64,000 bases of DNA from Pseudaquabacterium terrae (GTDB lineage: Bacteria > Pseudomonadota > Gammaproteobacteria > Burkholderiales > Burkholderiaceae_C): assembly GCF_013266755.1 (NCBI RefSeq), contig NZ_JABRWJ010000001.1, forward strand, positions 186,001 to 250,000. The letters are read 5' to 3'. The notes beneath the pieces are model-generated. The model ran no database searches and was not told the DNA's origin. It was given only the letters and a program-made list of their open reading frames with translations. The position numbers and the translations under genes were made by a program. Each line of letters starts with the position of its first letter. Within the stretch, counting starts at the first letter, position 1. Positions 17,428 through 34,324 of this stretch are shown here, one piece after another.

Positions 17428-18353
17428 GGTGGCGTTCCGATGGGGTGGTTCGCCAGATTCTCCAACGCCTTGACCATCGCCGAGTGGTCCCAGCCCCGGC
17501 CGCCGTGCGCGCTGCAGGCATTGAAGAGCGCTTGCGCCGTCGCGGTGTTGGGCAGCGCGACGCCAAGCGCACGCGCGCTGTCCAGCGCCAGGTTCAGGTC
17601 CTTCTGGTGCAGCTCGATGCGAAAACCCGGCTCGAAGGTCCGCTTGATCATGCGCTCGCCGTGCACTTCCAGGATCCGCGACGACGCGAAGCCGCCCATC
17701 AGCGCCTGGCGCACCTTGGCCGGATCGGCGCCGGCCTTGGCGGCGAAGACCAGCGCCTCGGCCACCGCCTCGATGTTCAGCGCGACGATGATCTGGTTCG
17801 CGACCTTCGCGGTCTGGCCGTCGCCGACCGCGCCGACGCGGGTGATGTTCTTGCCCATCCGCTCGAACAGCGGCTTGACGCGCTCGAACACCGCCTCGTC
17901 GCCGCCCACCATGATCGACAGCGTCGCGTTCTTCGCGCCGACTTCGCCGCCGGACACCGGCGCATCGAGGTAGGCGGCGCCGGTCCCGGCGATGCGTTCG
18001 GCAAAGCGCTTGGTGGCGATCGGCGAGATCGAACTCATGTCGACGACGACCTTGCCTTCGCGGCCCGCAGGGCCGCTACCCATTCCTTGCAGACCGGCAG
18101 CGACGCCTTGCTCGGCGAACAGCACCGCTTCGACGTCCGGCGTGTCGGGCAGCATCAGGAAGACGATGTCGGCGCGCTCGGCGACGCCGCGCGCACTGGT
18201 GCAGACGGTGGCGCGGCTGTCGCCGATGGCCGGCGGCAGCTTGCCGCGGGTGTGCACGAACAGCGTGTGGCCGGCGGCGATCAGGTGGCCGCACATCGGC
18301 GCGCCCATGATGCCGAGGCCGATGAAACCGAGCTTGAGCGGTTGTGAGGTCAT
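17424..18353 (-). CDS. glxR: 2-Hydroxy-3-oxopropionate (tartronate semialdehyde) reductase
   Basis: 309 residues from the ATG at 18353; the frame extends 19 codons upstream without conserved sequence. The beta-hydroxyacid dehydrogenase features are complete: GLGIMG nucleotide motif (12-17), DAPVSGGEVGA substrate motif (130-140) and catalytic Lys183 in GQTAKVANQ. It reduces tartronate semialdehyde, the product of Gcl, to D-glycerate. It is the third gene of gcl-hyi-glxR-glycerate kinase and is coupled to the kinase by an ATGA overlap. Confidence 0.92.
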   Translation of the reverse strand: MTSQPLKLGFIGLGIMGAPMCGHLIAAGHTLFVHTRGKLPPAIGDSRATVCTSARGVAERADIVFLMLPDTPDVEAVLFAEQGVAAGLQGMGSGPAGREGKVVVDMSSISPIATKRFAERIAGTGAAYLDAPVSGGEVGAKNATLSIMVGGDEAVFERVKPLFERMGKNITRVGAVGDGQTAKVANQIIVALNIEAVAEALVFAAKAGADPAKVRQALMGGFASSRILEVHGERMIKRTFEPGFRIELHQKDLNLALDSARALGVALPNTATAQALFNACSAHGGRGWDHSAMVKALENLANHPIGTPP

Positions 18354-18385
18354 GGCGATCGAATTCCTAGTGTCTGAAATGCACG

Positions 18386-19165
18386 TCACCGCACCAGTTG
18401 CTGGCGCCACTGCAGGCCGGCCTCGGTGGTGGTCGCGGGCTTGTATTCGCAGCCGATCCAGCCGGCATAGCCGATGCGGTCGAGGTGGCGGAACAGGAAG
18501 GCGTAGTTGATCTCGCCGGTGCCGGGTTCGTGGCGGCCTGGGTTGTCGGCGAGCTGGATGTGGGCGATGCGCGGCAGGTGTTTCTCCAGCGTCGCGGCCA
18601 GCTCGCCTTCCATGCGCTGCGCGTGGTACAGGTCGTACTGCACAAAGGCGTTGTCGGCACCGACCTCGTCGAGCAGGTCGAGCGCCTGCTGCGTGCGGTT
18701 CAGGTAGAAGCCGGGGATGTCGTAGAAGTTGATCGGCTCGATCAGCAGCTTCAAGCCCGCGGACTTGAACGCTGCCGCGGCGAAGCGCAGGTTGTCGACC
18801 AGCGTGCGGCGCACCAGGCCGGAGTCGACACCCGCCGGCGTCTTGCCGGCCAGGCAGTTCAACTGCCCGACGCCGAGCGCCTGCGCATAGGCGATGCCGC
18901 GGCCGACGCCGGCGCGGAACTCGGCAATGCGGTCGGGGTGGCAGGCGATGCCGCGCTCACCCGCTTCCCAGTCGCCGGGCGGCAGGTTGTGCAGAACAAG
19001 CGTCAGGCGGTGGCGCTCGAGCCGCTCCTTGATCTGATCGGCCGGCCAGGCGTACGGGAACAGGAACTCCACCGCCTCGAAACCGGCGCGCGTGGCGGCT
19101 TCGAAACGATCGAGGAACGGCACCTCATTGAAGAGCATCGTCAGGTTGGCGGCGAATTTCGGCAT
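18386..19165 (-). CDS. hyi: Hydroxypyruvate isomerase
   Basis: 259 residues, TIM-barrel of the xylose isomerase-like family. It begins PKFAANLTMLFNEVPF. Conserved metal or acid residues appear in LLIEPINFYDIPGF, FVQYDLYHAQRMEG and IGCEYKP. Hyi interconverts hydroxypyruvate and tartronate semialdehyde. It sits 18 bases downstream of gcl and 32 bases upstream of glxR, as in many Proteobacteria. Confidence 0.93.
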   Translation of the reverse strand: MPKFAANLTMLFNEVPFLDRFEAATRAGFEAVEFLFPYAWPADQIKERLERHRLTLVLHNLPPGDWEAGERGIACHPDRIAEFRAGVGRGIAYAQALGVGQLNCLAGKTPAGVDSGLVRRTLVDNLRFAAAAFKSAGLKLLIEPINFYDIPGFYLNRTQQALDLLDEVGADNAFVQYDLYHAQRMEGELAATLEKHLPRIAHIQLADNPGRHEPGTGEINYAFLFRHLDRIGYAGWIGCEYKPATTTEAGLQWRQQLVR

Positions 19166-19183
19166 GCGTTCTTCCTCTGCAAT

Positions 19184-20974
<1,791 letters not shown>

Positions 20975-21053
20975 CGCGCACTCCTTTGTGTCGTCGGCAG
21001 CGATGGTCGGCGCGCGCGCTCCGGCTGGGAATGCCAGTCCGGCGATAAGCGCT

Positions 21054-21068
21054 ATTCCGCTGTGGAAT
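21054..21068. promoter_or_regulatory. Candidate operator upstream of gcl
   Basis: The inverted repeat ATTCC-GCTGT-GGAAT (5-base perfect arms) lies 80 bases before the gcl ATG. The layout resembles operators of IclR-type regulators known to control glyoxylate genes, but no such regulator is present in the window. This is inference from symmetry and position. Confidence 0.4.
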
Positions 21069-21079
21069 GAACGAGAACG

Positions 21080-21110
21080 AAAAAGCGGCCGTACCCGAAG
21101 GCACGGCCGC
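21080..21110 (-). terminator. Intrinsic terminator after the exported protein gene
   Basis: On the minus strand GCGGCCGT pairs with ACGGCCGC around a loop containing C-TTCG-G, a very stable tetraloop arrangement, followed by TTTTT. It begins 38 bases beyond the stop of the gene at 21148-22083 and so ends that transcript before the divergent gcl region. Confidence 0.85.
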
Positions 21111-21147
21111 CACGCTTCATCGAAGCCAGGGGATGGGGCGAGAACGC

Positions 21148-22083
21148 TTAACCGCGGCCGCGCAGCTCCAGGCCGTCACCCGCGAAGCGGACCGCATCAC
21201 CCACGCGCACCGGCGGCGAGTCGTTGTAGGTCACGACCCGGCGCGAACCTTCGTTCGTGCGCACGACGACCTCGAATTGCGGCTCGCGCCACGGACCGCG
21301 TTCGAGTCGGCTCACCGATTCGACGACACCGCAGTCGACACCGCAGGCGGCGAAGCGGCTGCGCAGGTCCAGACCCGCATAGGCGTTGCTCAGCGTGCTG
21401 GTGGCCACGCGCTGGCCGTGTCGCAGTTGCGCGATCAGCGGCCGGTCGGTGTTCAGCACCGTGTGGCGACGCAGCGTGTAGATCGCGGTGTATTGACCCG
21501 GCCGCACCTCGTCCAGGATCAAGGTCTGCGGATCGCTGCCTTCCAGCTGCACCGATGCGCGGCCGCCCGGCGTGCCCTGCAGCGTGAAGCGCAGCATCTG
21601 GCCACCGCGGCGGAAGCCTTCATCGGCGACGTTCAGATGCGTGATCTCGGGACCCGTGATCACCGCGACCGAAGGCGCCGGCCAGCCCTGTTGCAGGCCT
21701 TGCGCCAGTTGCGCGCTCGCCACCTGGTCGCCGCGGCGCATCGTCACGCTGACGCGTGAGTTCGGCCCGATGCGATCGCTGCGGCTCACCGTATAGGTGC
21801 CTTCATAGATGCCCGGGCTCGCTTCGTGCAGCGAGATCGCGCGGGCGCCACCGTCGATCTGCAGCGTGACCTGCGAATCCGGCGTGCCTCGGACGCTGAA
21901 GTCCAGCTCGGCGCCCGGCCGCACGCGTTGTACCTGGTCGACGTCGATGTCGCGGATGTACAGCGCGAACGGGTGGCTGCTGGTGAATGCAACCGGTGCC
22001 GCGGCCTGCACGGCGATCGGGCTCAGGCCGAACGCGCTACCGGCGATGATGAGCGTTGCTAGGGTGGTCTTTCGGAACAGCAT
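21148..22083 (-). CDS. Exported protein with two repeated beta-type modules
   Basis: 311 residues from the ATG at 22083, chosen because AAAGGAAA precedes it and the signal peptide (about 1-27, ending VQAAA) starts there. The mature protein shows two similar modules, each with LDFSVRGTP- or LRFTLQGTP-like strands, an L...D/G.....LQ[IL].G core, a P/E-G-Y/I-Y-T-[VA]-Y segment and an L.[QR].LR.G[DQ]-type end. This is an Ig-like duplicated fold. A C-terminal part contains two Cys (CGVDCGV). I do not recognise a named family. A strong intrinsic terminator follows the gene. Confidence 0.75.
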
Positions 22084-22297
22084 GTCGTTTCCTTTCGGGG
22101 ACACGAGGGACAACCCAGCTTAGGAAACTCGGGCCCCACCCCTGGTCGGACCCTGTCGCGCATGGCCGTAGGGGATGACCTACGCTGGCACGTCCCGGGC
22201 TGTAGGACACCGGCTACTGCGTGGCGAGGCTTCGTCCTTCCGCTGCGCACGACGCACCCGACGACGATCGACTCGTTCAGTGGCCGAGGAAACACCC

Positions 22298-22513
22298 ATG
22301 ACACACGCCGCCCAGATCGTCGGCAAGGTCGAGTACCGCGAAGGCGAGGGCCCGCAGATGCCGATTCGGCCGGGTCCGATCGAGGTCGAGACCACGCACA
22401 ATGACGCGACACTCAGCTGGACCGACGGTGAGACACACGGCTCGGCCGCGATGCCGCTGACCGACTTCAAGCGCTACGTCGCCGAAGGCGCGATCCGGCT
22501 GCAGGCCGCCTGA
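22298..22513 (+). CDS. Small conserved-looking protein of unknown function
   Basis: 71 residues, acidic, without a signal peptide. The ATG at 22298 has GAGGA about ten bases upstream. The sequence has a compact pattern (GKVEYREGEGPQMPIRPGPIEVE, then hydrophobic-aromatic strands and LTDFKRYVAEGAIRL) that suggests a folded small domain with a terminal helix. No family is recognised. It stands alone between divergent and downstream genes. Confidence 0.6.
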   Translation: MTHAAQIVGKVEYREGEGPQMPIRPGPIEVETTHNDATLSWTDGETHGSAAMPLTDFKRYVAEGAIRLQAA

Positions 22514-22613
22514 CCGCCGGATCGGCCGCCCCGCGTCAGGGCCTGCGCGGCTCGGCGCACCGGCCCGCGACAAGCGCCCTGCCCGTGGATGGGCGCCGCT
22601 ACAGTGCGCGTCC

Positions 22614-23522
22614 ATGGACCGCATCACCGGCGTGCAGCTCTTCATCCGCGTCGTCGAGACAGCCAGCTTCAGCAAGGCCGCGGCCGAGTTGGGCATCACG
22701 CAGCCGACGGCGACCAAAGCCGTCGCCGCGATCGAACAGCGCCTCGGCGCGCGCCTCTTGCACCGCTCGACGCGCGGCGTCACACCCACCGAAGTCGGCG
22801 CGCTGTACTACGACAAGTGCAAGCTGATCGCGCGCGAGCTCGACGAGGCCGACAACCTGGCAACGCTGCTGCAGGCCAAGGTCGGCGGCACGCTGCGGAT
22901 CAGCACCTCGGTGGCGTTCGGGCGCCGCGTGCTGGTGCCGCTGGTGCTGCGCTACATGCGGGCGCACCCGCAGGTGCTGGTCGACCTGAGCTTCGACGAC
23001 CGCTACGTCAACCTGGTCGAACAGGGCGCGGACCTGGCGATCCGCATGGGCCGGCTCGCCGATTCGACGCTCGGCGCGCGTTACCTCGGCAGCAACCCGT
23101 GGCTGATGGTCGCCGCGCCGCACTACCTCGCCGAGCACGGCGCGCCGCTCGGTGCCGACGCGCTGGCCGGCCACGCGTGCCTGGTCTACAGCAGCGTGCA
23201 GGGCGACGACCGCTGGAGCCTGACGCTGCCCTCGGGCGAGGAGCGCTCGGTGCCGGTGAAAGGCCCGCTGCGCTCGAACAACCTCTCGGCCGTGCTGTCC
23301 GCCGCGCGCGCCGGCATGGGGCTGGCGATCCTGCCGTGGTACGTGGCGCGTGAATCGCTGGCCGACAGCAGCGTGCAGCAGGTACTCGCCGACCACGGGC
23401 TGCCGGCCCAGGAGGTGCATGCGGTGTTCCCGTCGCCGAAGCTGGTGCCCTCGAAGGTGACCAGCTTCATTGCTTTCCTGCAGCAGGCGCTGCAGGGCGA
23501 CTGGTGGACGCGCGCGGCGTGA
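22614..23522 (+). CDS. LysR-family transcriptional regulator
   Basis: 302 residues. The winged HTH (about residues 1-60) includes SFSKAAAELGITQPTATKAV and LLHRSTRGVTPTEVG. The C-terminal half is the periplasmic-binding-protein-like inducer domain of the CrgA/AaeR-like group (VDLSFDDRYVNLVEQGADLAIRMG). Its target is unclear. The nearest genes are the small protein upstream (same strand) and the repeat-protein locus downstream. Regulation of the latter would be a guess. Confidence 0.9.
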   Translation: MDRITGVQLFIRVVETASFSKAAAELGITQPTATKAVAAIEQRLGARLLHRSTRGVTPTEVGALYYDKCKLIARELDEADNLATLLQAKVGGTLRISTSVAFGRRVLVPLVLRYMRAHPQVLVDLSFDDRYVNLVEQGADLAIRMGRLADSTLGARYLGSNPWLMVAAPHYLAEHGAPLGADALAGHACLVYSSVQGDDRWSLTLPSGEERSVPVKGPLRSNNLSAVLSAARAGMGLAILPWYVARESLADSSVQQVLADHGLPAQEVHAVFPSPKLVPSKVTSFIAFLQQALQGDWWTRAA

Positions 23523-23629
23523 CTTAGTGCGCTGACGCGCGGCGCGGCGCCACGTCCGCCGCGCTGCCGTGGGTCGTAGGTGCGCTCAACCCGGTCGATC
23601 TCCGGCCGGTGCTTGAACCGGAGCGCACG

Positions 23630-25060
23630 ATGAAGTCCACGCCTGTCGCCCTTGCCCTGGCCCTGCTGTTCGGCGCCGCTGCGGCGCATGCGCAGTCGCG
23701 CATCGCCGACGGCAGCTCGAACACCGTGCTGCTGCCCGAAGCCGGCAACAACCTGCGCCAGATCGGCCGCGACGGCGCGGTGCGCGTGCTCGAGCCGGCC
23801 GGCACCAGCCTGACCACGCGCGGCACGGTGAGCGGCAACATCTCGCAAAGCAACCTCGCTTCGCAGTTCAGCGGCCGGCAGACCGCGTCGGTCGGCGGCA
23901 TCGATCAGGCGGCGCAGCTCGGCGGCACGATCGTCACGCAGGGCAGCCTGGTCGGCAACATCAGCCAGTCGCGCCGCAGCGATGGCGGCGGCTTCGACCA
24001 GCAGGTCAACATCGGTGGCGCGACCGGCTCGCTGGTCGTGCGCGGGCAGGCGCAGCTCAACGGTGCGGTGCAGGCGAACATCAGCCAGTCGTCCGACGAC
24101 TTCGTCTCGGTGTCCGGCTCCGGCACGCAGCGCATCGATGTCGGCGGCAGCCGCGAGTCGAGCGGCGGCAACATCACGACCAACGGCCTCGCCACCGCCG
24201 CACTGACGCAGACGCAGCGCGGCGGCGCCACACAGACCTTGCGCATCGGCAGCATCGACGGCGCGACGGTCGAGTCGGCGACGCTCGCCGGCACCATCAC
24301 CGCCACCGTCGGTCAATCCAGCAGCCCGAGCTCGGGCAGCGGCGGCGGCGTGCGGTCACAAAGCGTCGACGTCGGATCGCTGCGCGGCGCGCAGGCGCTG
24401 AACGTCGCGACCGACGGCCTGCTCGCCGGCGCGCTGGCGCAGAGCCAGACCGCCGGCGCGCAGCAGTCGGTCGACATCGGCTCGGTCGCCAACGTCGACG
24501 CGGCCGGCACGATCGATGCGCGCGGCCAGGTGCTGTCGACGATCACGCAGCAGACCAGCGCCGGCACCGAGCAGCAGATCAGCGTCGGCGCGGTGATCGG
24601 CGGCAGCCCGCAGAACGCGCAGGCGCGCGGCACGGTCAGCGCGGCGATCAGCCAGACCAGCACGAGCCCGGGCAACGCGTCGCAGCGCATCGCCGTCGGC
24701 AGCATCGAAGGGGCGAGCGGCCGCGTCAGCACCGATGCCGTCGTCAGCGCGCCGATCACGCAGGCACTGACGGCCGGCGCCAGCAGCAGCTCGCAGCGGC
24801 TGGCGATCGGCAGCACCAAGGACACCGCCGGCAACGTGACGACGCGCGCGGTGGTGTCCGGCGCGATCAACCAGAGCGCCAACAGCAGCGGCGCGCAGCA
24901 GACGATCGCCATCGGCAGCGTGCAGGGCAGCGCCGCCAACGTGCGCACCGATGCCACCGTCACCGGCACCTTGTCGCAGAGCACGAACCCGTCGGGCCAG
25001 ACGCAGAAGATCCTGGTCGGCGGCGTGATCGGCGCGTCGAACGAGACGATCGCCGACTGA
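23630..25060 (+). CDS. Exported glutamine-rich repeat protein, candidate amyloid/fibre subunit (HfaD-like)
   Basis: 476 residues from the ATG at 23630; a GTG seven codons earlier would spoil the signal peptide (1-22, ending AHAQ). The mature protein is built of about eleven repeats of 35-45 residues. Each contains V-x-G-x-I-x-Q-S (GNISQS, GAINQS, GTLSQS and variants) followed, after a variable Ser/Gly/Asn loop, by Q-x-I-x-[IV]-G-S-[IV]. Regularly spaced Gln, Asn, Ser and Gly on beta-strands recall curli subunits and the holdfast anchor protein HfaD. No cysteine is present. The genes that follow encode a small exported protein and a CsgG/HfaB-like pore. A role as a self-assembling surface fibre is inference from composition and context. 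Confidence 0.6.
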   Translation: MKSTPVALALALLFGAAAAHAQSRIADGSSNTVLLPEAGNNLRQIGRDGAVRVLEPAGTSLTTRGTVSGNISQSNLASQFSGRQTASVGGIDQAAQLGGTIVTQGSLVGNISQSRRSDGGGFDQQVNIGGATGSLVVRGQAQLNGAVQANISQSSDDFVSVSGSGTQRIDVGGSRESSGGNITTNGLATAALTQTQRGGATQTLRIGSIDGATVESATLAGTITATVGQSSSPSSGSGGGVRSQSVDVGSLRGAQALNVATDGLLAGALAQSQTAGAQQSVDIGSVANVDAAGTIDARGQVLSTITQQTSAGTEQQISVGAVIGGSPQNAQARGTVSAAISQTSTSPGNASQRIAVGSIEGASGRVSTDAVVSAPITQALTAGASSSSQRLAIGSTKDTAGNVTTRAVVSGAINQSANSSGAQQTIAIGSVQGSAANVRTDATVTGTLSQSTNPSGQTQKILVGGVIGASNETIAD

Positions 25061-25074
25061 AGGAGCTGAAGGCC

Positions 25075-25407
25075 ATGCGACGCTTCTGGATCCTGCTCGC
25101 CGTGCTGACCGCGCCCGCGGTGGCGCCGGCCGGCACACCCGACATCCCCGACGACATCAACGCGCGGCTGGCGCGCGCGAAGGGCCAGATCGCCGCCGAG
25201 GTCGCCACCCGCCAGCGCGCCGGCCAGCCGGCCAGCGCGCCCGGTGTCGGCCGCGCGGCGGCCGTCGGCACGCAGGCCTTCGGCACCGGCTGCTCGATCG
25301 CCATCGGCAACATCTTCGAGGACAAGCCGCGCATCGGCGCGCCGCGCCGCGAGACGACCGTGATCGTCACCGGCGACATCATCCAGGCCGGCAACAACTG
25401 CCGCTGA
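25075..25407 (+). CDS. Small exported protein, candidate HfaA-like fibre partner
   Basis: 110 residues with a short signal peptide (about 1-19). The mature part is basic, has two cysteines (GCSIAIGNI near residue 73 and the penultimate NNC) and ends with beta-type TTVIVTGDIIQAGNNC. It starts 15 bases after the repeat-protein gene and ends 28 bases before the CsgG-like gene, so the three almost surely form an operon. In Caulobacter the holdfast anchor operon has a small HfaA, a repeat-type HfaD and the CsgG-like HfaB. The size and position here match HfaA, but I cannot show homology by eye. Confidence 0.5.
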   Translation: MRRFWILLAVLTAPAVAPAGTPDIPDDINARLARAKGQIAAEVATRQRAGQPASAPGVGRAAAVGTQAFGTGCSIAIGNIFEDKPRIGAPRRETTVIVTGDIIQAGNNCR

Positions 25408-25434
25408 AGTCGGTCCTCAACAGGAGGTCGCACC

Positions 25435-27042
25435 ATGCGCCTGCTGCCCCTGCTGCTCGCGCTCGCCGCGAGCGCCTGCACCTCGACCCTGCCGCCGCGC
25501 ACCCAGGACCAGTCGGCCGCGCTGCGCCCCGCGCAGGCCGCCCTGCCGCAGCGCAACGTCACCGGCTTCGGTGACGCGTTGCGCTGCATGGACAAGCTGT
25601 ACCTGGCCTACGGCACGCGCGATGTCAGCGTGATGCTGGAGGACCTGACCGACACGACGAAGAAGGTCAACGCCGGCACGCGCGACATGATGATGTCGGC
25701 GATCTCGGACATGACGCGGCGCAGCCGCGCGCTGCAGGTGGTGGCCTTCGGGCCTGACGCCAACAACGTCGTCGCCTTCCTCAACAGCGCGCAGCAGCGC
25801 AGCGCCTTCGCGGTGGTGCCGCAGTACGACCTGCGCGGCTCGATCACGCAGCTCGACGAAGGCGTGCTCAGGCGCCAGGCCGACGCCGGCCTGTCGGCGG
25901 GCACGCTGTTCGGCGCCGGCGCGTCCAAGAGCCGGCAGCTCAACGTGCTGGGCCTCGACGTCGCGCTGGTCAACACCCGCGACCTGACGCTGGTGCCCGG
26001 TGTCGTCTCGAAGAACGTGACGACGGTGATCAAGGAGGGCGATGCGCTCGACGCGCAGGCGACGATCAGCAAGCTCGGCATCAACTTCAGCACCTCGTTC
26101 CAGCGCACCGACGGCACCGCGCAGGCGCTGCGCAACATGGTCGAGCTGTCGGCGGTCGAGCTGTTCGGCAAGCTGCTGAAGCTGCCGTACTGGAGCTGCC
26201 TCGGCCTGGATGCCGGGCTGCCCGAGATCCGCGACGAGATCGAGGACTGGTTCATCGGCATGGAGCGCGCCGGCGAGCTGACGCCCTTCTTCCAGCTGCA
26301 GCTGCGCAACCGCGGCTTCTACGAAGGCCCCGTCGACGGGCGCATCAGCCCGGCGCTGCGCCGCGCCGTCGCGGCCTACCGCGGCGCGCTCGGCCTGGGG
26401 CAGGAGCCGGTGGTCGACCTGGCGCTGTTCACGCGTTTCATCGACGCGGCGATGCCGGCGGCGCCGGAGCAGCCGTTTCGCGATGTCGGGACGGCACCCG
26501 CCGTGGCGACAGGGGCACCGGTGGCCGTCGCCGCGCCGCGCGCCGCGACCGCCGCAGCGCCGGTGCCGGTGCCGGTGCCGGCGCCGGCGCTGCCCTCCCC
26601 GGCCTCGACCCGCGCGCGCCCGCTGGCGCTGGCACTCGAGCCGATGGCGGCGCTGGCCGACGGCTCGCTGGCGCTGCGCGTGCGGCCAACCGAGGCCACG
26701 TACGTCTACTGTTATGCGCAGGACAGCGCCGGCACGATGCAGCGCATCTTCCCGAACCGCTTCGTCAACGATCCGCTGGTGCAGCCGTCGCAGCCGCTGC
26801 AGCTGCCGGGCGCGCAGGGCTTCCGGCTGCCGCCGCAATCGGTGCGCGCGCTCGGCTGCGTCGCCGCGCCGCGCGAGGTCTACCTCGATGCACCGGCGGC
26901 GCTGCGCTGGGGCGACTTCCAGGCGCTGAACGCCATCCGCAGCTTCGAGCAGCTGCAGCGCATCTTCGAGGCGCTGATCCGCGGCCCGGCGACGGTCACG
27001 ATGCTCGAGCTGCCGCCGCCGCACGCCGGCGCGCGCCCGTAA
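25435..27042 (+). CDS. CsgG/HfaB-like outer-membrane lipoprotein with peptidoglycan-binding-like and DUF4384-like regions
   Basis: 535 residues. Lipobox LAASAC gives acceptor Cys15. Residues about 45-255 fit the CsgG fold: a Rossmann-like start, then LRGSITQLDEG, a Gly-rich segment (TLFGAGASKS) followed by LNVLGLDVALVNTRD and SKNVTTVI, and the closing helix ALRNMVELSAVELFGKL. This mirrors CsgG's GSI-x-YES, GADTQYQ, VNLRVVN and C-terminal helix. CsgG and HfaB form outer-membrane pores for amyloid subunits. Residues about 285-337 (FFQLQLRNRGFYEGPVDG) look like a peptidoglycan-binding repeat. A Pro/Ala linker and a DUF4384-like domain (about 400-530) follow. These additions are absent from CsgG. 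It is the third gene of the candidate fibre operon. Confidence 0.65.
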   Translation: MRLLPLLLALAASACTSTLPPRTQDQSAALRPAQAALPQRNVTGFGDALRCMDKLYLAYGTRDVSVMLEDLTDTTKKVNAGTRDMMMSAISDMTRRSRALQVVAFGPDANNVVAFLNSAQQRSAFAVVPQYDLRGSITQLDEGVLRRQADAGLSAGTLFGAGASKSRQLNVLGLDVALVNTRDLTLVPGVVSKNVTTVIKEGDALDAQATISKLGINFSTSFQRTDGTAQALRNMVELSAVELFGKLLKLPYWSCLGLDAGLPEIRDEIEDWFIGMERAGELTPFFQLQLRNRGFYEGPVDGRISPALRRAVAAYRGALGLGQEPVVDLALFTRFIDAAMPAAPEQPFRDVGTAPAVATGAPVAVAAPRAATAAAPVPVPVPAPALPSPASTRARPLALALEPMAALADGSLALRVRPTEATYVYCYAQDSAGTMQRIFPNRFVNDPLVQPSQPLQLPGAQGFRLPPQSVRALGCVAAPREVYLDAPAALRWGDFQALNAIRSFEQLQRIFEALIRGPATVTMLELPPPHAGARP

Positions 27043-27137
27043 CGAACACTTTGTCGCTCGGGGTTGCATTCGGCTTCGTCTGGATTCTTCGGGCTCGCGC
27101 ACGATGTTTGCCGGCGCAAGCGCGAAAGGAATCCATC

Positions 27138-28355
27138 ATGACCACACAGCTCGGCCTCGCGGCAAAACGAAGAACGCTGACCACTCTGTTCGCACTGGCG
27201 GCGCTGGCCGGCTGCGGCGGCGGTGGCGGCGATGCCGGCGGCACGCCGGTGCCACCGCCGCTGGGCGGCGGCAACGGCACGCTGCGCGCCTGGCTCACCG
27301 ATGCGCCGGCCTGCGGCTACGACAGCGTGCACGTCAGCGTCGAGAAAGTGCGCGTGCACCAGAGCGCCAGCGCCGACGAGGGCGCCGCCGGCTGGTCGGA
27401 GATCGTGCTGTCGCCGGCACGCCGCATCGATCTGCTGAGCCTGCGCAACGGCGTGCTGAGCGAGCTCGGCCAGACGACGTTGGCCCCCGGCCGCTACCAG
27501 CAGCTGCGGCTGGTGCTGGCGACCAACAGTGCCGCGGCGCCGCTGGCCAACGCGGTGCGGCCGAGCGGCGAAGCGGAGGTCGAGCTGAAGACGCCGAGCG
27601 CGCAGCAAAGTGGCCTGAAGCTCAACGTCGGCATCGACATCGCCGCCAACCAGAGCGCCGACATCGTGATCGACTTCGACGCCTGCAAGTCGGTGCTGCG
27701 CGCCGGCAATTCGGGCAACTTCATCCTGAAACCGGTGCTGCAGGCGACGCCGCGCTTCGTGACCGGCGTGCAAGGCTTCGTCGAGGCCGCGTTGATCGGC
27801 CCGCTGACGACGGTGTCGCTGCAGCAGGGCGGCATGGCGATCAAGAGCACGCAGCCGGATGCGACCGGCAAGTTCGTGCTGCAACCCGTCGCGCCCGGCA
27901 GCTACACGCTGGTGCTGGCCGCGCCGGGCCGCACGACGCTCACCGTGACCGGCGTGGCCGTCAGCGGCAGCAGCTTGACGGCGATCGGCAGCAGCGCGGT
28001 GCCGCTGCTGGCGCCGGCCTCGGCCAGCGGCAACCTGGTCGGCAGCGTCAGCAGCGCGGTGGCGCCGATCGATGCGCTGGTGCGGGTGACGCAGTCGCTG
28101 ACCGGCGGGGCGATGCTGGAGTGGACGGCGGTGCCGGTCAACGCGTCGACGGGCGCCTATGCCCACAGCGTGCCGGTCGCGGCGCCGCTGGTGGCGGCCT
28201 ATGTGCCGGCGCCGGCGCCGCTCGTCTTCGCGTCCGACAACCCGGCCGCCGGCCGCTACACGGTGGTGGCGACGTCCGGCGGCATCACCAAGTCGGCCGG
28301 ACCGCTGACGCTCGCGGCGGGCGCGACGCTGACCAACAACTTCACGTTCCCGTGA
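27138..28355 (+). CDS. DUF4382 lipoprotein with carboxypeptidase-regulatory-like C-terminus
   Basis: 405 residues from the ATG at 27138, which has a GAAAGGA ribosome site. Lipobox LAGC gives acceptor Cys26, followed by a Gly-rich linker. The DUF4382 domain spans about 48-220 (GTLRAWLTDAP, VHVSVEKVRVH, YQQLRLVL). A second part (about 220-300) resembles the carboxypeptidase regulatory-like fold (FVLQPVAPGSYTLVLAAPGR). It is probably a surface or periplasmic protein of unknown job. It follows the CsgG-like gene by about 95 bases on the same strand and may or may not belong to that operon. The end overlaps the convergent terC by 14 bases. Confidence 0.8.
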   Translation: MTTQLGLAAKRRTLTTLFALAALAGCGGGGGDAGGTPVPPPLGGGNGTLRAWLTDAPACGYDSVHVSVEKVRVHQSASADEGAAGWSEIVLSPARRIDLLSLRNGVLSELGQTTLAPGRYQQLRLVLATNSAAAPLANAVRPSGEAEVELKTPSAQQSGLKLNVGIDIAANQSADIVIDFDACKSVLRAGNSGNFILKPVLQATPRFVTGVQGFVEAALIGPLTTVSLQQGGMAIKSTQPDATGKFVLQPVAPGSYTLVLAAPGRTTLTVTGVAVSGSSLTAIGSSAVPLLAPASASGNLVGSVSSAVAPIDALVRVTQSLTGGAMLEWTAVPVNASTGAYAHSVPVAAPLVAAYVPAPAPLVFASDNPAAGRYTVVATSGGITKSAGPLTLAAGATLTNNFTFP

Positions 28356-29115
28356 CGGCCAGCTGCTGGCGCTTGCGCCGCGCGCGCAGGTTCAGCGCCT
28401 CGACCGCCAGCGAGAAGGCCATCGACGCGTAGATGTAGCCCTTGGGCACGTGCGCGTCGAAGGCTTCGGCCGTCAGCGCCATGCCGACCATCACCAGGAA
28501 GGCCAGCGCCAGCACCTTGACCGACGGATGGCTGTCGACGAATTCGCCGATCGGCTTGGACGCCCACAGCATCACGCCGACCGCGGCGATCACCGCGGCC
28601 GCCATCACGGCGAGCTGGTCGACCATGCCGACGGCGGTGATCACCGAGTCGAGCGAGAAGACGATGTCGATCACCGCGATCTGGCCGATCGTCGCCCACA
28701 GCATCGTGCGGCGCGCGGCCAGCGCCGCGGCGTCGAGCGTGCTTTCTTCGGCGCCGGCCGCCGGCGTGTCGCGCAGGTCACGCGCCTCGACCTCGACGAA
28801 GATCTCGTGCGAGGCCTTGTAGAGCAGGAACAGACCGCCCCCCAGCAGCACCAGGTCGCGCCCGCTGATCGATTGACCGAGCAGGCTGAAGAGCTCTTCC
28901 TTCAGCCCCATCACCCAGCTCAGCGAGAACAGCAGCGCCAGCCGCGTCACCATCGCGAACGCCAGGCCCAGGCGCCGCGCGCTGTTGCGCTGCTCCGGCG
29001 GCAGGCGGCCGACGAGGATCGAGATGAAGATGATGTTGTCGATGCCGAGCACGATTTCGAGTGCGGTGAGCATCGCGAACGCGATCCAGACCTGGGGGTC
29101 GAGCAGCAGTTCCAT
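28342..29115 (-). CDS. TerC-family membrane protein
   Basis: 257 residues with seven or eight membrane helices. Signature acidic motifs are EIVLGIDNIIF (about 20-30) and IDIVFSLDSVITAVGM (about 150-165), which carry the conserved Asp residues of TerC/Alx proteins. Members export manganese or help load exported metalloenzymes. The start is the ATG at 29115 (MELLLDPQVWIA). The gene is divergent from an NhaR-like regulator, with a candidate operator between them. Confidence 0.9.
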   Translation of the reverse strand: MELLLDPQVWIAFAMLTALEIVLGIDNIIFISILVGRLPPEQRNSARRLGLAFAMVTRLALLFSLSWVMGLKEELFSLLGQSISGRDLVLLGGGLFLLYKASHEIFVEVEARDLRDTPAAGAEESTLDAAALAARRTMLWATIGQIAVIDIVFSLDSVITAVGMVDQLAVMAAAVIAAVGVMLWASKPIGEFVDSHPSVKVLALAFLVMVGMALTAEAFDAHVPKGYIYASMAFSLAVEALNLRARRKRQQLAVTGT

Positions 29116-29160
29116 GGCGGGGGGTCCTTCGGGGAATCCGCGACCATAGGCGCACCGGCG

Positions 29161-29178
29161 ATTCGCGTAAAGTCGAAT
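29161..29178. promoter_or_regulatory. Candidate LysR-type operator between terC-like gene and nhaR-like gene
   Basis: ATTCG-N8-CGAAT is a perfect 5-base dyad lying 34 bases before the regulator start and 46 bases before the TerC start. Divergent LysR regulators usually bind such a dyad between their own gene and the target. The assignment is positional. Confidence 0.45.
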
Positions 29179-29211
29179 TTCCGCGCCTGTCGCTTCGCAA
29201 AAACCGAAGCC

Positions 29212-30108
29212 TTGAACTTCAAGCACCTGCACTACTTCTGGGCCGCGGCCAAGGCCGGCGGCATCGTGCGCGCGGCCGAGCAGCTGCACGCCACGCCGCA
29301 GACGCTGTCGGCGCAGATCAAGCTGCTGGAGTCGCGGCTCGGCTGCAGCCTGTTCAAGAAGGCCGGCCGACATGTCGAGCTGACCGACGAAGGCCGCATC
29401 GCGCTGCGCTACGCCGACCAGATCTTCGCGCTCGGCGCCGAGCTGCAGACCGCGCTCGCCCAGGCGCGCAGCGGCCAGCGCACGCTGGTGTTTCGCGTCG
29501 GGCTGGCCGACGCGGTGCCGAAGTCGATCGCCTACCGCCTGCTCGAGCCGGCACTGAAGCTGCCGGTCGAGGTGCGGCTGGTGGTCCACGAGGGCAAGCT
29601 CGCCGACCTGCTGGCGCAGCTGTCGGTGCAGCGGCTGGACCTGGTGATCGCCGACGAGCCGCTCGGGCGCCGCGCCAGCATCAAGGCCTTCGACCATGCG
29701 CTGGGGTCGACGGCGATGAGCTTCTTCGCGACGCCGGCGCTCAAACGCACGCTGCGCGGGCGTTTCCCGGCCTTGCTCGACGGCGCGCCGATGCTGGTGC
29801 AGGGCGCGCAATCGGCATTGCGCGGCCGGCTCGAGCGCTGGCTCGCTGAAGCGCAGCTGAAGCCGCGCGCGGTCGGCGAATTCGACGACGCAGCGTTGAT
29901 GAAGGCCTTCGGCGCCGAAGGCCGCGGCGTCTTCATGTCGCCGACGGTGCTCGAGGCCGAGACCTGCGCGCAGTACGGCGTGAAGGTGCTCGGCCGTGCA
30001 GCCGGCTTGAGCGAGGAGTTCCACGCCATCTCGGTCGAGCGGCGCCTGAGCCACCCCTGCGTCGTCGCGATCACGCAGGCGGCGCGCGGCGGGTTTCTGG
30101 AGGGCTGA
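29212..30108 (+). CDS. nhaR: LysR-family regulator, NhaR type
   Basis: 298 residues from the TTG at 29212, which gives LNFKHLHYFWAAAKAGGIVRAA, the usual N-terminus of NhaR-like proteins. There is no in-frame ATG before the HTH. The HTH (about 17-45) reads IVRAAEQLHATPQTLSAQIKLLE. The effector domain carries LPVEVRLVVHEGKLADLL and the GRGVFMSPTV segment typical of NhaR. E. coli NhaR senses sodium and pH. Here the divergent neighbour is a TerC-family gene, so ion or pH homeostasis is a reasonable inference. Confidence 0.85.
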   Translation: MNFKHLHYFWAAAKAGGIVRAAEQLHATPQTLSAQIKLLESRLGCSLFKKAGRHVELTDEGRIALRYADQIFALGAELQTALAQARSGQRTLVFRVGLADAVPKSIAYRLLEPALKLPVEVRLVVHEGKLADLLAQLSVQRLDLVIADEPLGRRASIKAFDHALGSTAMSFFATPALKRTLRGRFPALLDGAPMLVQGAQSALRGRLERWLAEAQLKPRAVGEFDDAALMKAFGAEGRGVFMSPTVLEAETCAQYGVKVLGRAAGLSEEFHAISVERRLSHPCVVAITQAARGGFLEG

Positions 30109-30169
30109 TCGGCACCGGAGGGGCGTGACCGATGGGAAGTCACGCGGTCGCCGCTGCCACGACGCCGCC

Positions 30170-30574
30170 CTACTGGGGCTTCGGGAAGCGGCTCAAGTGC
30201 TCGTGGACGATGCGCAACTGGCCGTTCTCGTTGCGCAGCACGCGGGTGCCGCGCCCGCGGATCGTGAATGACCGGCCGGCCTGCGAGCCTTCCCAGTTGT
30301 AGGTGTAGGTGGCGGTGGCGGTCGTGTGATCGGTGGTCAGCACGACGATGTCGGAGAGGTAGAAGCGCGCCTTCCTGACGCTGGGGTCGCCGCGCCAGGT
30401 CTTCTCGAACACCGCCCGGATGGCCGGCCGGCCGACGAAGTCGCCGTCGTTGAAGCGGAAGTAGGCCCGCTCGTCGATCAGGTGCTCGATCAGGCTGAAG
30501 TCTTCCTTCTCGGCAAGCGCTTCGAACCGATGCAGGAACTCGACCACGGATTCAGCGGACAGCGATGCTTGCAT
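30170..30574 (-). CDS. NTF2/SnoaL-like (DUF4440-type) protein
   Basis: 134 residues from the ATG at 30574; the frame stays open upstream but that part is not protein-like and overlaps the GntR gene. The cone-shaped NTF2 fold is suggested by VVEFLHRFEALAEKEDFSLIEHLIDERAYFRF at the start and TATYTYNWEG / FTIRGRGTRVLRNENGQLRIVHEHLS at the end. The function is unknown. It lies 10 bases downstream of a GntR gene and is likely the last gene of the symporter-gntR unit. Confidence 0.75.
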   Translation of the reverse strand: MQASLSAESVVEFLHRFEALAEKEDFSLIEHLIDERAYFRFNDGDFVGRPAIRAVFEKTWRGDPSVRKARFYLSDIVVLTTDHTTATATYTYNWEGSQAGRSFTIRGRGTRVLRNENGQLRIVHEHLSRFPKPQ

Positions 30575-30584
30575 GTTCGCGAGC

Positions 30585-31292
30585 TTAGCGCGAGATCGAC
30601 GCGTCCTTGGGCGTCGGCGCCAGCGGCGCCAGCGTCGCGCGCAGGCGCTCGCGCGGATCGTCACGCGCGGCGAGCGACTGGCCGAGGGCGGATTCGACGC
30701 TGCCGATGTGCTGCAGCATCAGCGCCTCGGCCCGGGTCAGGTCGCCGGCTTCGAGCGCGGCGACGATGCGGGCATGGTCGGCGCAGGATTCGCGCGCGTC
30801 GTGCGTGCTCTGGTAGAGCGTGGCGACCAGCGTCGTGCGTGCGGTCAGGTCGCGCAGCATGTCGGCCAGCATGCGGTGGCCCAGGCATTCGGCGAGGCAG
30901 ACGTGGAAGTCGGCGAGCACGAAGGCGCGGGTCGCCGCATCGGCGCCGTCGACCGCCTGGCGCTCGTCGCGGATGTGCGCCTTCAGCCGCTTCAGCACCG
31001 CTTGCAGCGGCCGGCCTTCGCACTGCCTGAGCATGCCGCCCTCCACCGCGCGGCGCGCGGCGAAGGCGTCACGCGCCTCGTCGATCGACGGCTCGACGAC
31101 GTACCAGCCCTTGCGCGACCGCACCTCGACGAAGCCGCGCGCCTGCAACTGCATCAGCGCCTCGCGCACCAGCGTGCGGCTGACGCCGAACAGATCCGCC
31201 AGTTCCTGCTCGCCGAGGCGCTCGCCGGGTTTCAACTTCTGCGCGAGGATCGCTTCGACCACGCGCTGGGCAATGTCGGATTGGCTGGCCAT
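30585..31292 (-). CDS. GntR-family regulator, FCD subfamily
   Basis: 235 residues from the ATG at 31292; upstream in-frame starts add a non-conserved stretch inside the symporter gene. The winged HTH (about 1-70) reads LGEQELADLFGVSRTLVREALMQL. The FCD domain (about 80-215) keeps the metal/ligand-binding residues in DFHVCLAECLGH and the closing DHARIVAALEAGD. It sits 14 bases after the symporter gene and resembles the second FCD regulator at 36135. It probably controls the symporter or purine genes, with a small acid as effector (inference). Confidence 0.88.
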   Translation of the reverse strand: MASQSDIAQRVVEAILAQKLKPGERLGEQELADLFGVSRTLVREALMQLQARGFVEVRSRKGWYVVEPSIDEARDAFAARRAVEGGMLRQCEGRPLQAVLKRLKAHIRDERQAVDGADAATRAFVLADFHVCLAECLGHRMLADMLRDLTARTTLVATLYQSTHDARESCADHARIVAALEAGDLTRAEALMLQHIGSVESALGQSLAARDDPRERLRATLAPLAPTPKDASISR

Positions 31293-31306
31293 CACCAGAT
31301 CATGAC

Positions 31307-32638
31307 TCAAGCCTTGGCGGTGGCGGTCAGCGGCAGCGCAGGCACCAGCTGGTCTTCGCTGTCGTCCACCGTCGGCGCCGCACGTCCGTCGAGCACCGCA
31401 TGCGCCTGGTCGCGGTCGATATCCCCTTCCCACGCGGCGATCGCCACGGTCGCGACGCAGTTGCCGATCAGGTTGCCGAGCGCACGCGCAATGCCCATGA
31501 ACCAGTCAACCGACAGCACCAGCACCAGCCCGATCGCCGGAATCGCGGGAATCGCCTGCAAGGTGGCGGCGAGCACGACGATCGCCGAGCCCGGCACGCC
31601 GTGCGCGCCCTTGCTGGTGATCAGCGACACCGCCAGGATCGTCAGCAGGTCGGTCATCGAGATGGGCGTGTTGGTCGCCTGTGCGATGAACACCGCGGCC
31701 AGCGTGATGTAGATCGAGAACGCGTCGAGGTTGAACGAGTAGCCGGTGGGAATGACCAGGCCGACCGTCGAATCGCGCACGCCCATGCGGCGCAGCTTGG
31801 CCATCACCTGCGGCAGCACGCTGTCGCTGGAGGTCGTCGCGAAGACCACCGCGAGCTCCTCGCGCAGGTACTTCAGGAACTTCCACAGCGAGAAGCCGGC
31901 GAGCCGCATGATCAGCCCGAGCACGCCGAAGACGAAGATCAGCACCGCGCCGTAGAACAGCAGCACCAGCATGCCGAGCTGCTTCAGCGAACCGAGCCCG
32001 TACTTGCCGACCGTGAAGGCGATCGCGCCGAGCACGCCCAGCGGCGCCAGCCGGATGATGATGCCCATGGTCTTGAACAGCACCTGCGACATCGTCTCGA
32101 TGAAGTTCGCGACCGGCGCGCCGCGCTCGCCGACCAGCGCCAGCGCGCAGCCGAACAGCACGGCGAACAGCAGCACCTGCAGCACGTCGCCGGTGGCGAA
32201 GGCATGGACCACCGTCGTCGGGATCAGCTTCATCAGGAAGTCGACGGTGCCGCCGGAGGTCAGCTTGCCGGCGTTCTCGGCATAGGCGCCCATCAACTTC
32301 GCATCCAGCGCCTTCGGGTCGACGTTCATGCCGACGCCGGGCTGGAACCAGAACGCGAGGATCAGGCCGAGGATCAGCGCGACCGTCGTCACCGCCTCGA
32401 AGTAGATCAGCGCCTTGATGCCGACGCGGCCGACGCGCTTCAAGTCCCCGGCGCCGGCGATGCCGTGCACGACGACGCAGAACACCAGCACCGGGATCAG
32501 CATCTTGACCAGCTTGATGAAGGCATCGCCGAGCGGCTTGAGCTTGATCGCCAGCTCGGGCATCGCGAAGCCGAGCAAGACGCCGACCAGCAGCGCCAGC
32601 ACGACCTGGCCGAAGAGTGAACGCAGGAAACGGGGCAT
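31307..32638 (-). CDS. Dicarboxylate/amino acid:cation symporter (DctA/GltP family)
   Basis: 443 residues from the ATG at 32638. The DAACS fold is recognisable from VLVFCVVVHGIAGAGDLKRVGR, the serine-rich re-entrant motif VVFATTSSDSVLPQVM, IPTGYSFNLDAFSIY and SKGAHGVPGSAIVVLAATL. It takes up C4-dicarboxylates or acidic amino acids with H+ or Na+. Its place downstream of puuD and ahead of an FCD regulator hints that the substrate may be a purine-breakdown product, but classical dicarboxylates are equally possible. The last 40 residues are an acidic cytoplasmic tail. Confidence 0.9.
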   Translation of the reverse strand: MPRFLRSLFGQVVLALLVGVLLGFAMPELAIKLKPLGDAFIKLVKMLIPVLVFCVVVHGIAGAGDLKRVGRVGIKALIYFEAVTTVALILGLILAFWFQPGVGMNVDPKALDAKLMGAYAENAGKLTSGGTVDFLMKLIPTTVVHAFATGDVLQVLLFAVLFGCALALVGERGAPVANFIETMSQVLFKTMGIIIRLAPLGVLGAIAFTVGKYGLGSLKQLGMLVLLFYGAVLIFVFGVLGLIMRLAGFSLWKFLKYLREELAVVFATTSSDSVLPQVMAKLRRMGVRDSTVGLVIPTGYSFNLDAFSIYITLAAVFIAQATNTPISMTDLLTILAVSLITSKGAHGVPGSAIVVLAATLQAIPAIPAIGLVLVLSVDWFMGIARALGNLIGNCVATVAIAAWEGDIDRDQAHAVLDGRAAPTVDDSEDQLVPALPLTATAKA

Positions 32639-32681
32639 TGAAGACCTCCAGGCGAAGGGTTGCGACAACTGGACCACACGC

Positions 32682-32691
32682 TTGTATGCAA
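32682..32691. promoter_or_regulatory. Candidate GntR-type operator upstream of the symporter
   Basis: TTGTATGCAA (imperfect dyad; 8 of 10 positions symmetric) lies 43 bases before the symporter start. It resembles the short TTGTA/TACAA palindromes bound by FCD-type GntR proteins, one of which is encoded two genes downstream. This is inferred from pattern and position only. Confidence 0.4.
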
Positions 32692-32849
32692 GCAATGTAG
32701 GCAATGGTCGTCCCAGGGCGTCTGGTGTTTACCCGCGGGATTGGCGCATGGGCGCGGTGATCAGACGTGCACGAAAACGCAGCAATCGCGCCGGGCGGCG
32801 AGCAGGAGGCCGGCTCGAGGCGCGCACGAGGCCGGCCGCCGGCGCCGCG

Positions 32850-33080
32850 TCAGGCCGGGTCGGTCGAGCCGGCAGCCGGCGCCGGTGCGCCGGCGGAGCG
32901 CTCGCTCCACAGCCGGCCGCCGGTGGCCCAGTCGTGCCGGGCGACGTCGCGGAAGATCACGTCGACCGCATCGCCGCTGCCGCCGAGCACGCGCACGCAG
33001 GCCTCGGTGATTTCCTTGGCCAGCGCGGCCTTCTGCGCAACGGTGCGGCCTTCGAACAGTTCGACATGGATCGTGGGCAT
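32850..33080 (-). CDS. 4-Oxalocrotonate tautomerase-family protein
   Basis: 76 residues. After Met removal the catalytic Pro1 is present (MPTIHVELFEGRTVAQKAALAKEI), with the usual beta-alpha-beta fold. The AVDVIFRDVARHDWATGG segment matches tautomerases of about 65-75 residues. The C-terminal 10-15 residues are low-complexity. It follows puuD by 38 bases on the same strand, so it probably belongs to the purine operon. A role with an unstable purine-ring intermediate is possible but unproven. Confidence 0.85.
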   Translation of the reverse strand: MPTIHVELFEGRTVAQKAALAKEITEACVRVLGGSGDAVDVIFRDVARHDWATGGRLWSERSAGAPAPAAGSTDPA

Positions 33081-33118
33081 CGGGAATCCTCCGGCGGTTT
33101 CAACTGGGCCGGGGATTT

Positions 33119-34324
33119 TCAGCGCACTGGCGCGCCCGCTTCGAACCAGCGCTTGATCAACGCGCGCTCGGCGTCGGTGATCTGCGTCGCGTTGTTCAGC
33201 GGCATCAGCTTCAGCACCGCCACCTGCTGGTAGACGGTCTGCGCGTGCTGCTTGACCAGCTCCGGCGTGTGCAGCGCGACGTTCTTCTGCTGCAGTTGGG
33301 CGTTATGGCACATCGCGCAGCGTTGATCGATCACCGCCTTGACGTCGCCGAAAGCGACCGGCCTGGCCTCGGCAGCCACTGCGGCGGCCGACGGCGGCGG
33401 CGGCGCCAGCCACAGCGCCAGGATCACCAGCATCGCGGTGCCGCCGACCGCATGCTCCCACGGCACGCGCTTGCCCTGCACCTGCGCCTTGTGCCGCGCG
33501 ACGAAGCTGTGCCGTATCAACGCGCCGGCCAGCATCAGCAGCACCAGCACGAGCCAATTGTTGGTTCCCTGGTACAGCCAGCCGTAGTGGTTGGACAGCA
33601 TCGCGATCAGCACCGGCAGCGTGAAGTAGGTGTTGTGCACGCTGCGCTGCTTCGCGCGCTGCCCGTGGATCGGGTCGACGGCCAGGCCGGCCTTCATCTG
33701 CGCCACCACGGTGCGCTGGCCCGGGATGATCCAGAAGAAGACGTTGGCGCTCATCGCCGTGGCCAGCATCGCACCGACCAGCAGGAAGGCTGCGCGGCCG
33801 GCGAAGAGCTGGCAGGCGAGCCAGGACGCGAAGATCACGAACACCAGCACGCCGAGCGCGACGATGCGGTCGCCATTCTTCTTTTGACCGAAAGCGCGGC
33901 AGATCAGGTCGTAGACCAGCCAGAACGCGACCAGGAAACCGAGCGACGCGCCGATCGCTGCGCCGGCCGACCAGTCGTGCACGCTCTTGTCGATGAGAAA
34001 GCTGCCGGCGTTGAACAGGTACAGCACCGTGAACAGGCCGAACCCGGTCAGCCAGGTGCTGTAGCTCTCCCAGTAGAACCAGTGCAGGTGCTCGGGCAGC
34101 GTCTTCGGTGCGACCAGGTACTTCTGCGGGTGGTAGAAGCCGCCGCCGTGCACGGCCCAGAGCTCACCGTCGACGCCCTTGGCCTTCAGCTCCGGCGCGG
34201 TCGGCGCGGTGAGGCTGTTGTCGAGGAAGACGAAATAGAACGACGAGCCGATCCAGGCAATCGCCGTGATGACATGGGCCCAGCGCAACAGCAGGTTGGC
34301 CCAATCGAGCAGGTACGCATCCAT
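33119..34324 (-). CDS. puuD: Urate hydroxylase PuuD (membrane protein with cytochrome c domain)
   Basis: 401 residues from the ATG at 34324 (MDAYLLDWANLLLRWAHVI). Eight membrane helices cover residues about 8-310, with family markers WIGSSFYFVFLDNSL, GGGFYHPQKYLVAP and HWFYWESYSTWLTG. The C-terminal domain is a cytochrome c with haem motif CAMCH (336-340) and a distal Met in LKLMPLNN. PuuD oxidises urate to 5-hydroxyisourate in the purine pathway. Its partner UraH is encoded 1.7 kb away in a unit sharing the same operator palindrome. Confidence 0.93.
   Translation of the reverse strand: MDAYLLDWANLLLRWAHVITAIAWIGSSFYFVFLDNSLTAPTAPELKAKGVDGELWAVHGGGFYHPQKYLVAPKTLPEHLHWFYWESYSTWLTGFGLFTVLYLFNAGSFLIDKSVHDWSAGAAIGASLGFLVAFWLVYDLICRAFGQKKNGDRIVALGVLVFVIFASWLACQLFAGRAAFLLVGAMLATAMSANVFFWIIPGQRTVVAQMKAGLAVDPIHGQRAKQRSVHNTYFTLPVLIAMLSNHYGWLYQGTNNWLVLVLLMLAGALIRHSFVARHKAQVQGKRVPWEHAVGGTAMLVILALWLAPPPPSAAAVAAEARPVAFGDVKAVIDQRCAMCHNAQLQQKNVALHTPELVKQHAQTVYQQVAVLKLMPLNNATQITDAERALIKRWFEAGAPVR

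Follow-up and report, generated by a model that had tools for sequence, protein, structure and literature searches.

A conserved three-gene set in Pseudaquabacterium terrae and its probable role in the export of a beta-repeat surface protein by a wall-anchored HfaB-type pore

We have analyzed three adjoining genes in a contiguous stretch of 64,000 bases from Pseudaquabacterium terrae (contig NZ_JABRWJ010000001.1, positions 186,001 to 250,000), referred to here as the window; positions below are counted from its first base. The genes encode an exported beta-repeat protein of 476 residues (P0001, 23630..25060), a small exported protein of 110 residues (P0002, 25075..25407) and a CsgG/HfaB-type lipoprotein of 535 residues (P0003, 25435..27042). 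The set is conserved, and its most likely task is to bring a beta-repeat protein to the cell surface by way of an HfaB-type pore anchored to the wall. P0001 is the candidate fibre subunit, P0002 a candidate nucleator or cap and P0003 the candidate outer-membrane pore. The three open reading frames (ORFs) are co-oriented (+), with 14 bases between P0001 and P0002 and 27 bases between P0002 and P0003; AAGGAG lies 5' of P0002 and AGGAGG lies 5' of P0003. A preliminary description of this DNA had reported three tightly spaced genes for an exported repeat protein, a small exported protein and a lipoprotein, and both the ORFs and their spacing are confirmed here.

The assignment of P0003 is based on its ORF and on profile matches. 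Its N-terminus carries a lipobox (ASAC, with Cys15), and this column is at least 90% cysteine in an alignment of 32 P0003 relatives (alignment A1), where at least L037, L040 and L045 lack it as judged by eye. Left out of A1 were L033 (the same place as L059), L066 (the same as L039), L067 (partial and out of frame) and L052 (distant, 373 residues). The CsgG/HfaB-type domain occupies about residues 36-265 (25540..26229, +). In hhalign comparisons this region matched 8 HfaB-type proteins over 208 columns with an E-value of 6.1e-13 and a probability of 98%; the score of 92.3 compares with a maximum of 20.5 in 40 column shuffles and with 14.6 for the reversed profile. The match to 9 CsgG proteins covered 181 columns, with E = 5.5e-4 and a probability of 30%. 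The NCBIfam HfaB model (NF037935) scored 22.1 bits on P0003 (E = 7e-5), short of its cut-off of 300, and matched 19 of the 32 A1 members weakly, at E up to 0.01, while Pfam CsgG (PF03783) had no match in P0003. Judged from these profiles, membership of P0003 in the CsgG/HfaB superfamily appears well supported through HfaB and thin to CsgG directly. The resemblance to CsgG read by eye in the preliminary description, with its proposed profile check of the 535-residue protein, is thus upheld by way of HfaB, the match to CsgG itself being weak.

Two further domains follow in P0003, which the preliminary description had not mentioned: a peptidoglycan-binding domain (PG_binding_1, PF01471) at residues 286-328 (26290..26418, +; E = 7.5e-5, 23.3 bits for a cut-off of 23) and a DUF4384 domain (PF14326) at residues 411-465 (26665..26829, +; E = 2.4e-10). 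DUF4384 recurs in 30 of the 32 A1 members and PG_binding_1 in 21. Directly past the first strand, 12 CsgG residues are unmatched in the P0003 family in the alignment to the CsgG profile. As we read this alignment, the gap is the site of the CsgG constriction loop, which comprises Tyr66, Asn70 and Phe71 in E. coli (excerpt of PMC7304575), so that the loop would be missing in the P0003 family and the lumen of its pore may be wider. HfaB is intermediate at this site, with about 8 residues more than the P0003 family; the statement that HfaB likewise has no constriction loop proved too strong and was dropped. Hydrophobicity alternation along residues 40-260, a scan that had no control, was highest in stretches that include 145-160 and 211-222, although other stretches score too; these two segments would fall roughly where CsgG has its membrane strands. 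Matches of P0003 to sequences in the PDB were antibody chains and other chance matches only.

P0002 is defined by its ORF and by a conserved cysteine module. It begins with a signal peptide, recognized by eye, and ends in the module C-SIAIGN-(loop)-TTVIVTGDIIQAGNN-C, which can also be written C-SIAIGN...ETTVIVTGDIIQAGNN-C. Residues A30, C73, G100 and C109 are invariant in all 16 aligned P0002 relatives (alignment A2), and no Pfam family was found for P0002, the best match among the 16 members having E = 0.025. As a profile, the module resembles the repeat unit of P0001 described below: over 28-30 columns none of 100 column shuffles reached the real score in either of two versions of the comparison (E = 0.0022 and 7e-4), the "core" version leaving out five small proteins (L038 and L046-L049). 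No convincing match came from a single-HMM search between repeat units and small proteins. The resemblance of the module to one fibre repeat offers a lead for a nucleator or cap role, short of proof.

By the sequence comparisons that follow, P0002 is the sharpest signature of the three-gene system, a role for the small protein that was not foreseen in the preliminary description. The signature is a regular expression written from P0002-type C-terminal modules, so that its results measure specificity. It matches near the pore gene in 27 of the 32 A1 loci, a count that is unselected on the small protein. In 23 of these 27 the match lies on the same strand and no more than 232 bases upstream of the pore gene; the exceptions are L050 (1,266 bases upstream), L043 and L044 (other strand) and L045 (downstream). 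With six loci from outside the class added, which were chosen for having partners and so select the figure upward, the count is 33 of 38. There were no matches in the reversed 519,870 bases of the same loci, and a stricter form run on 901,789 bases gave 29 matches, duplicates included, all of them at pore loci. Most loci span about 6 kb on each side of the pore; the window spans 64 kb and contains one match.

Profile searches of 399 genomes of the order gave a similar picture. The A1 profile matched 71 of them at E up to 1e-3, most via common C-terminal domains only, and by our own judgement of the rows 19 have a match over the pore domain. The A2 profile matched 11 genomes, 10 of which are among the 19 pore genomes, with the match at most 1.3 kb from the pore. 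If the two were independent, and with relatedness ignored, an overlap of at least 10 of the 11 would have a probability of 4e-14. The eleventh genome, G179, is marginal (E = 7.9e-4), its alignment ending at position 90 of 111. The A2 profile found no match in the other nine pore genomes, four of which (G377, G204, G133 and G171, loci L046-L049) carry a diverged small protein recognized by alignment and regular expression. A tblastn search of 35 loci, some of them short, placed P0002-like genes upstream of the pore in 14 distinct loci; P0001-like genes were found in 10 distinct loci, where they lie directly 5' of the small protein and pore. The gene set is thus conserved as a unit, as found in the survey of co-occurrence that the preliminary description had proposed.

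Outside the class, at least 13 of 299 genomes of the phylum have a pore-domain match. We fetched 15 additional loci, 13 from outside the class and 2 from the family of the window; only six of these (L110-L115) joined the 38-locus counts, for having partners. In all six the small protein lies beside the pore, and further sequence types of repeat protein were called in five; in L113 the opposite strand was called where its near-copy L112 carries the repeat gene. A restriction of the system to Burkholderiales is not supported by these loci. Of the loci that were not added, three (L118-L120) are contigs of 3.3-5.3 kb, the partners in L121 are of another kind, and L123 and L124, from two genomes of the window's own family, have a sister-type pore beside a protein of 1,090-1,197 residues and a small exported protein.

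Several other members of the superfamily were seen. A second, very diverged pore-family copy of 470 residues is present in the same genome as the window (L051, G000:C23, 6395-7807, -); no lipobox was found in it, and no adjacent repeat or small partner was seen. The same genome has further CsgG-family matches, with PF03783 over its cut-off, at L001 (1450-2289, -) and L002 (about 1501-1986, +), and no repeat protein was seen within about 1.5 kb on each side of either. In the Methylibium-type loci L063 (4503-5249), L065 (5115-5876) and L039 (7066-7785), another exported, cysteine-containing protein of 239-253 residues stands upstream of the pore and replaces the repeat and small proteins; no Pfam family was found for that of L039. 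A distant DNA search of plasmids found nothing.

P0001 was characterized from its ORF and from the anchors, consensus and period of its repeats. A signal peptide covers about residues 1-22, by eye. The mature protein is composed of 15% Gly, 14.5% Ser, 12.8% Ala, 10.4% Thr, 9.5% Gln and 4.6% Asn, and has no Cys, Trp, Tyr or Met; it is rich in Gly, Ser, Ala, Thr and Gln, and Asn, which the preliminary label of a Gln/Ser/Asn/Gly repeat protein includes, is scarce. Compared with 30 shuffles, its self-similarity is greatest at a spacing of 35 residues (z = 5.3), and about 10 repeats of 35-43 residues each can be recognized. The family consensus of this window-type unit is QTISVGSVRGSSAGNVTTNGTVTGAITQSATG, and that of the type in L034-L042 is QKMKIGNASGGGKSNVKAGNITQSQSGLLNE. 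A period of 31-40 residues, at z of at least 3.5, is present in every one of 25 repeat proteins that were chosen by eye in 22 loci; this period or its double is the best one in 24, the other being that of L058 (best 18, second 36). No Pfam families were found in P0001. An LpxA match (E = 0.0023) was far under its cut-off, and the repeat proteins of ten relatives gave sub-cut-off, unrelated matches, the strongest being Ribosomal_L28e on L034 (E = 1e-4).

These observations lead us to favour, as rather probable, a three-gene system by which a beta-repeat protein is exported and built into a surface fibre attached to the cell wall. The CsgG/HfaB-type domain of P0003 would assemble into a ring-shaped pore in the outer membrane, and the C-terminal peptidoglycan-binding and DUF4384 domains would hold this pore to the wall from its periplasmic side. 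P0001, with no Cys, Trp or Tyr, would enter the periplasm by Sec, cross the pore and stack outside as a fibre or mat, with a presumed function in adhesion or matrix formation. P0002, with one strand-loop-strand module like the repeat unit and two flanking cysteines that may form a disulfide, would most likely start or cap the fibre at the pore.

An alternative, which we consider unlikely, is that P0003 is a CsgG-fold periplasmic lipoprotein that forms no pore, the repeat and small proteins staying in the periplasm or leaving it otherwise, and that the set is a module for envelope stress or wall remodelling. A cell-wall-binding domain on P0003 and its weak CsgG match would suit such a module, as would the company kept by the relatives: anywhere in the locus, OmpA-type proteins occur in 14 of 38, an ECF sigma factor in 10 and an anti-sigma factor in 6. 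As partners of envelope type, these are also in keeping with the favoured reading. Proteins with the CWQxG motif are encoded in 13 of the 38 loci and DUF2807 proteins in 5. An identical search of positions 17001-34000 of the window found none of these five types. Against it, P0001 is cysteine-free, repetitive and fast-changing, as surface proteins tend to be. In comparison with Aquabacterium humicola, whose pore protein is the nearest to P0003 in the tree discussed below, identity is highest for the LysR-type gene (90%), followed by P0003 (81%), the next gene upstream (78%), P0002 (74%) and P0001 (60%). P0001 is thus the least conserved of the five genes compared, as expected if it is exposed.

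Some results do weigh against an exported fibre. The score of the CsgG comparison, 33.1, is not far above the maximum of 25.0 in 40 column shuffles (reversed profile 12.7), and PF03783 is matched in just one of the 32 A1 members (E = 0.0017). The alignment of the P0002 module with the second repeat type is confined to 7-10 columns and is equalled by 4 and 1 of 100 shuffles in the two versions; the scores of single P0002 sequences against the repeat model are inside the shuffled range. The P0002 signature has no match in L063, L065, L039, the second copy L051, or L037, which is cut by the contig end, and the outside-class loci L116, L117 and L122 have the pore domain without such partners. Nor was Curlin_rpt listed for P0001 and the ten relatives' repeat proteins at E up to 10, a search in which the HMMER filters drop most weak matches; because of this an amyloid nature of the repeat proteins could be suggested by analogy only.

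The upstream neighbour of the set (22614-23522) encodes a LysR-type regulator, by eye. Downstream, at 27138-28355 (+), lies a DUF4382 gene with a carboxypeptidase-regulatory-like domain and a lipobox recognized by eye. No Rfam families at gathering score and no tRNA genes were found in the 64-kb window. The CWQxG-motif protein of the relatives is small and exported, and occurs in L034-L036, L038, L040-L042 and L110-L115; for the two that were checked, in L110 and L113, no Pfam family was found.

Searches of the open PubMed Central literature found no papers on CsgG with DUF4384, on a CsgG/HfaB family or on betaproteobacterial HfaB homologues, and the gene set is, provisionally, undescribed there. 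CsgG-like pores are reported to have a broad taxonomic spread (excerpt of PMC13397529); the words "peptidoglycan" and "HfaB" are absent from that paper. If the proposed mechanism is correct, a matrix or adhesin system with a pore family of its own, so far undescribed, is present in environmental and wastewater bacteria (records of Rhodoferax, Azoarcus, Candidatus Accumulibacter and Aquabacterium). The system would provide a second, independent case for studying how beta-repeat proteins are selected and released by CsgG-type pores, here possibly wider and constriction-free, when CsgE and CsgF are missing, and the P0002 signature makes it easily found by sequence. More tentatively, and with the odds somewhat against so broad a statement, this may be a distinct and widespread pore-dependent surface-fibre machine of Pseudomonadota. 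Its constant core would be a peptidoglycan-anchored, loop-less CsgG/HfaB-type pore and a disulfide-closed one-repeat cap, with the fibre subunit freely exchanged among several repeat families of 31-40-residue period, and the cap would take over the task that is divided in curli among CsgB, CsgE and CsgF.

Two known systems invite comparison. Like HfaABD of Caulobacter, the window has a gene for a CsgG/HfaB-superfamily lipoprotein adjoining two genes for exported proteins. HfaA is reported to resemble CsgA and HfaB to resemble CsgG, with the targeting of HfaA and HfaD dependent on HfaB (excerpt of PMC6707917). That the set is a betaproteobacterial holdfast anchor, the same three proteins in diverged form, seems very improbable to us. 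HfaB is indeed the best family match of P0003, and the profile match spans the domain, but the 22.1 bits are far from the cut-off of 300. The likeness in gene order proposed in the preliminary description is loose: three genes are neighbours in both cases, whereas the fetched HfaB loci run small protein, HfaB, larger protein and the window runs repeat protein, small protein, pore. The fetched HfaB proteins have 292-400 residues and P0003 has 535, with its added peptidoglycan-binding and DUF4384 region. The proteins beside the fetched HfaB genes, which we take from their position rather than from a family model to be HfaA and HfaD, furnished 4 and 2 HfaA-position and 3 HfaD-position sequences for comparison. 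P0002 was rejected as an HfaA homologue (E = 0.055 and 0.11, over 6 residues each), and a match of the repeat family to HfaA (E = 2e-4) was due to the signal peptide. The repeat family scored 22.4 with HfaD, above all 40 shuffles (maximum 20.1), yet over 14 residues and with a probability of 0.8%. No relationship of P0001 or P0002 to HfaA or HfaD, as suggested earlier, was thus found among these few sequences. In a tree of 58 rows, rooted at the midpoint and flagged for long branches, a split with support of 100/99 separates the 8 HfaB and 9 CsgG proteins from the 41 rows of the P0003 family and its sister type.

Like curli, the window system pairs a pore-superfamily lipoprotein with an exported repeat protein, and its minor protein, P0002, may be similar to a single repeat, which by analogy would suit a role like that of CsgB. 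Curlin repeats are about 22-23 residues long, in contrast to the period of 31-40 found here. The explanation to which we give least credence is a diverged form of curli in which only csgA, csgB and csgG are left. It could draw on the curli systems without csgE and csgF in Alphaproteobacteria and on the two curli systems reported for Burkholderiales (both in an excerpt of PMC3521004). However, models for CsgE, CsgF and the curlin repeat (PF07012) had no match anywhere in the genome with an E-value of 0.001 or less, the E. coli control being positive, which agrees with the earlier failure to see csgE or csgF and leaves the proposed kinship to curlin without a match in P0001 or the genome. The Curlin_rpt search of the repeat proteins and the failure of Pfam CsgG to match P0003 point the same way, and the window system differs from curli in having no CsgG constriction loop, as far as the alignment can be read. 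On present sequence comparisons the window system is neither Caulobacter HfaABD nor curli, and the P0003 family appears to form a branch of its own in the pore superfamily.

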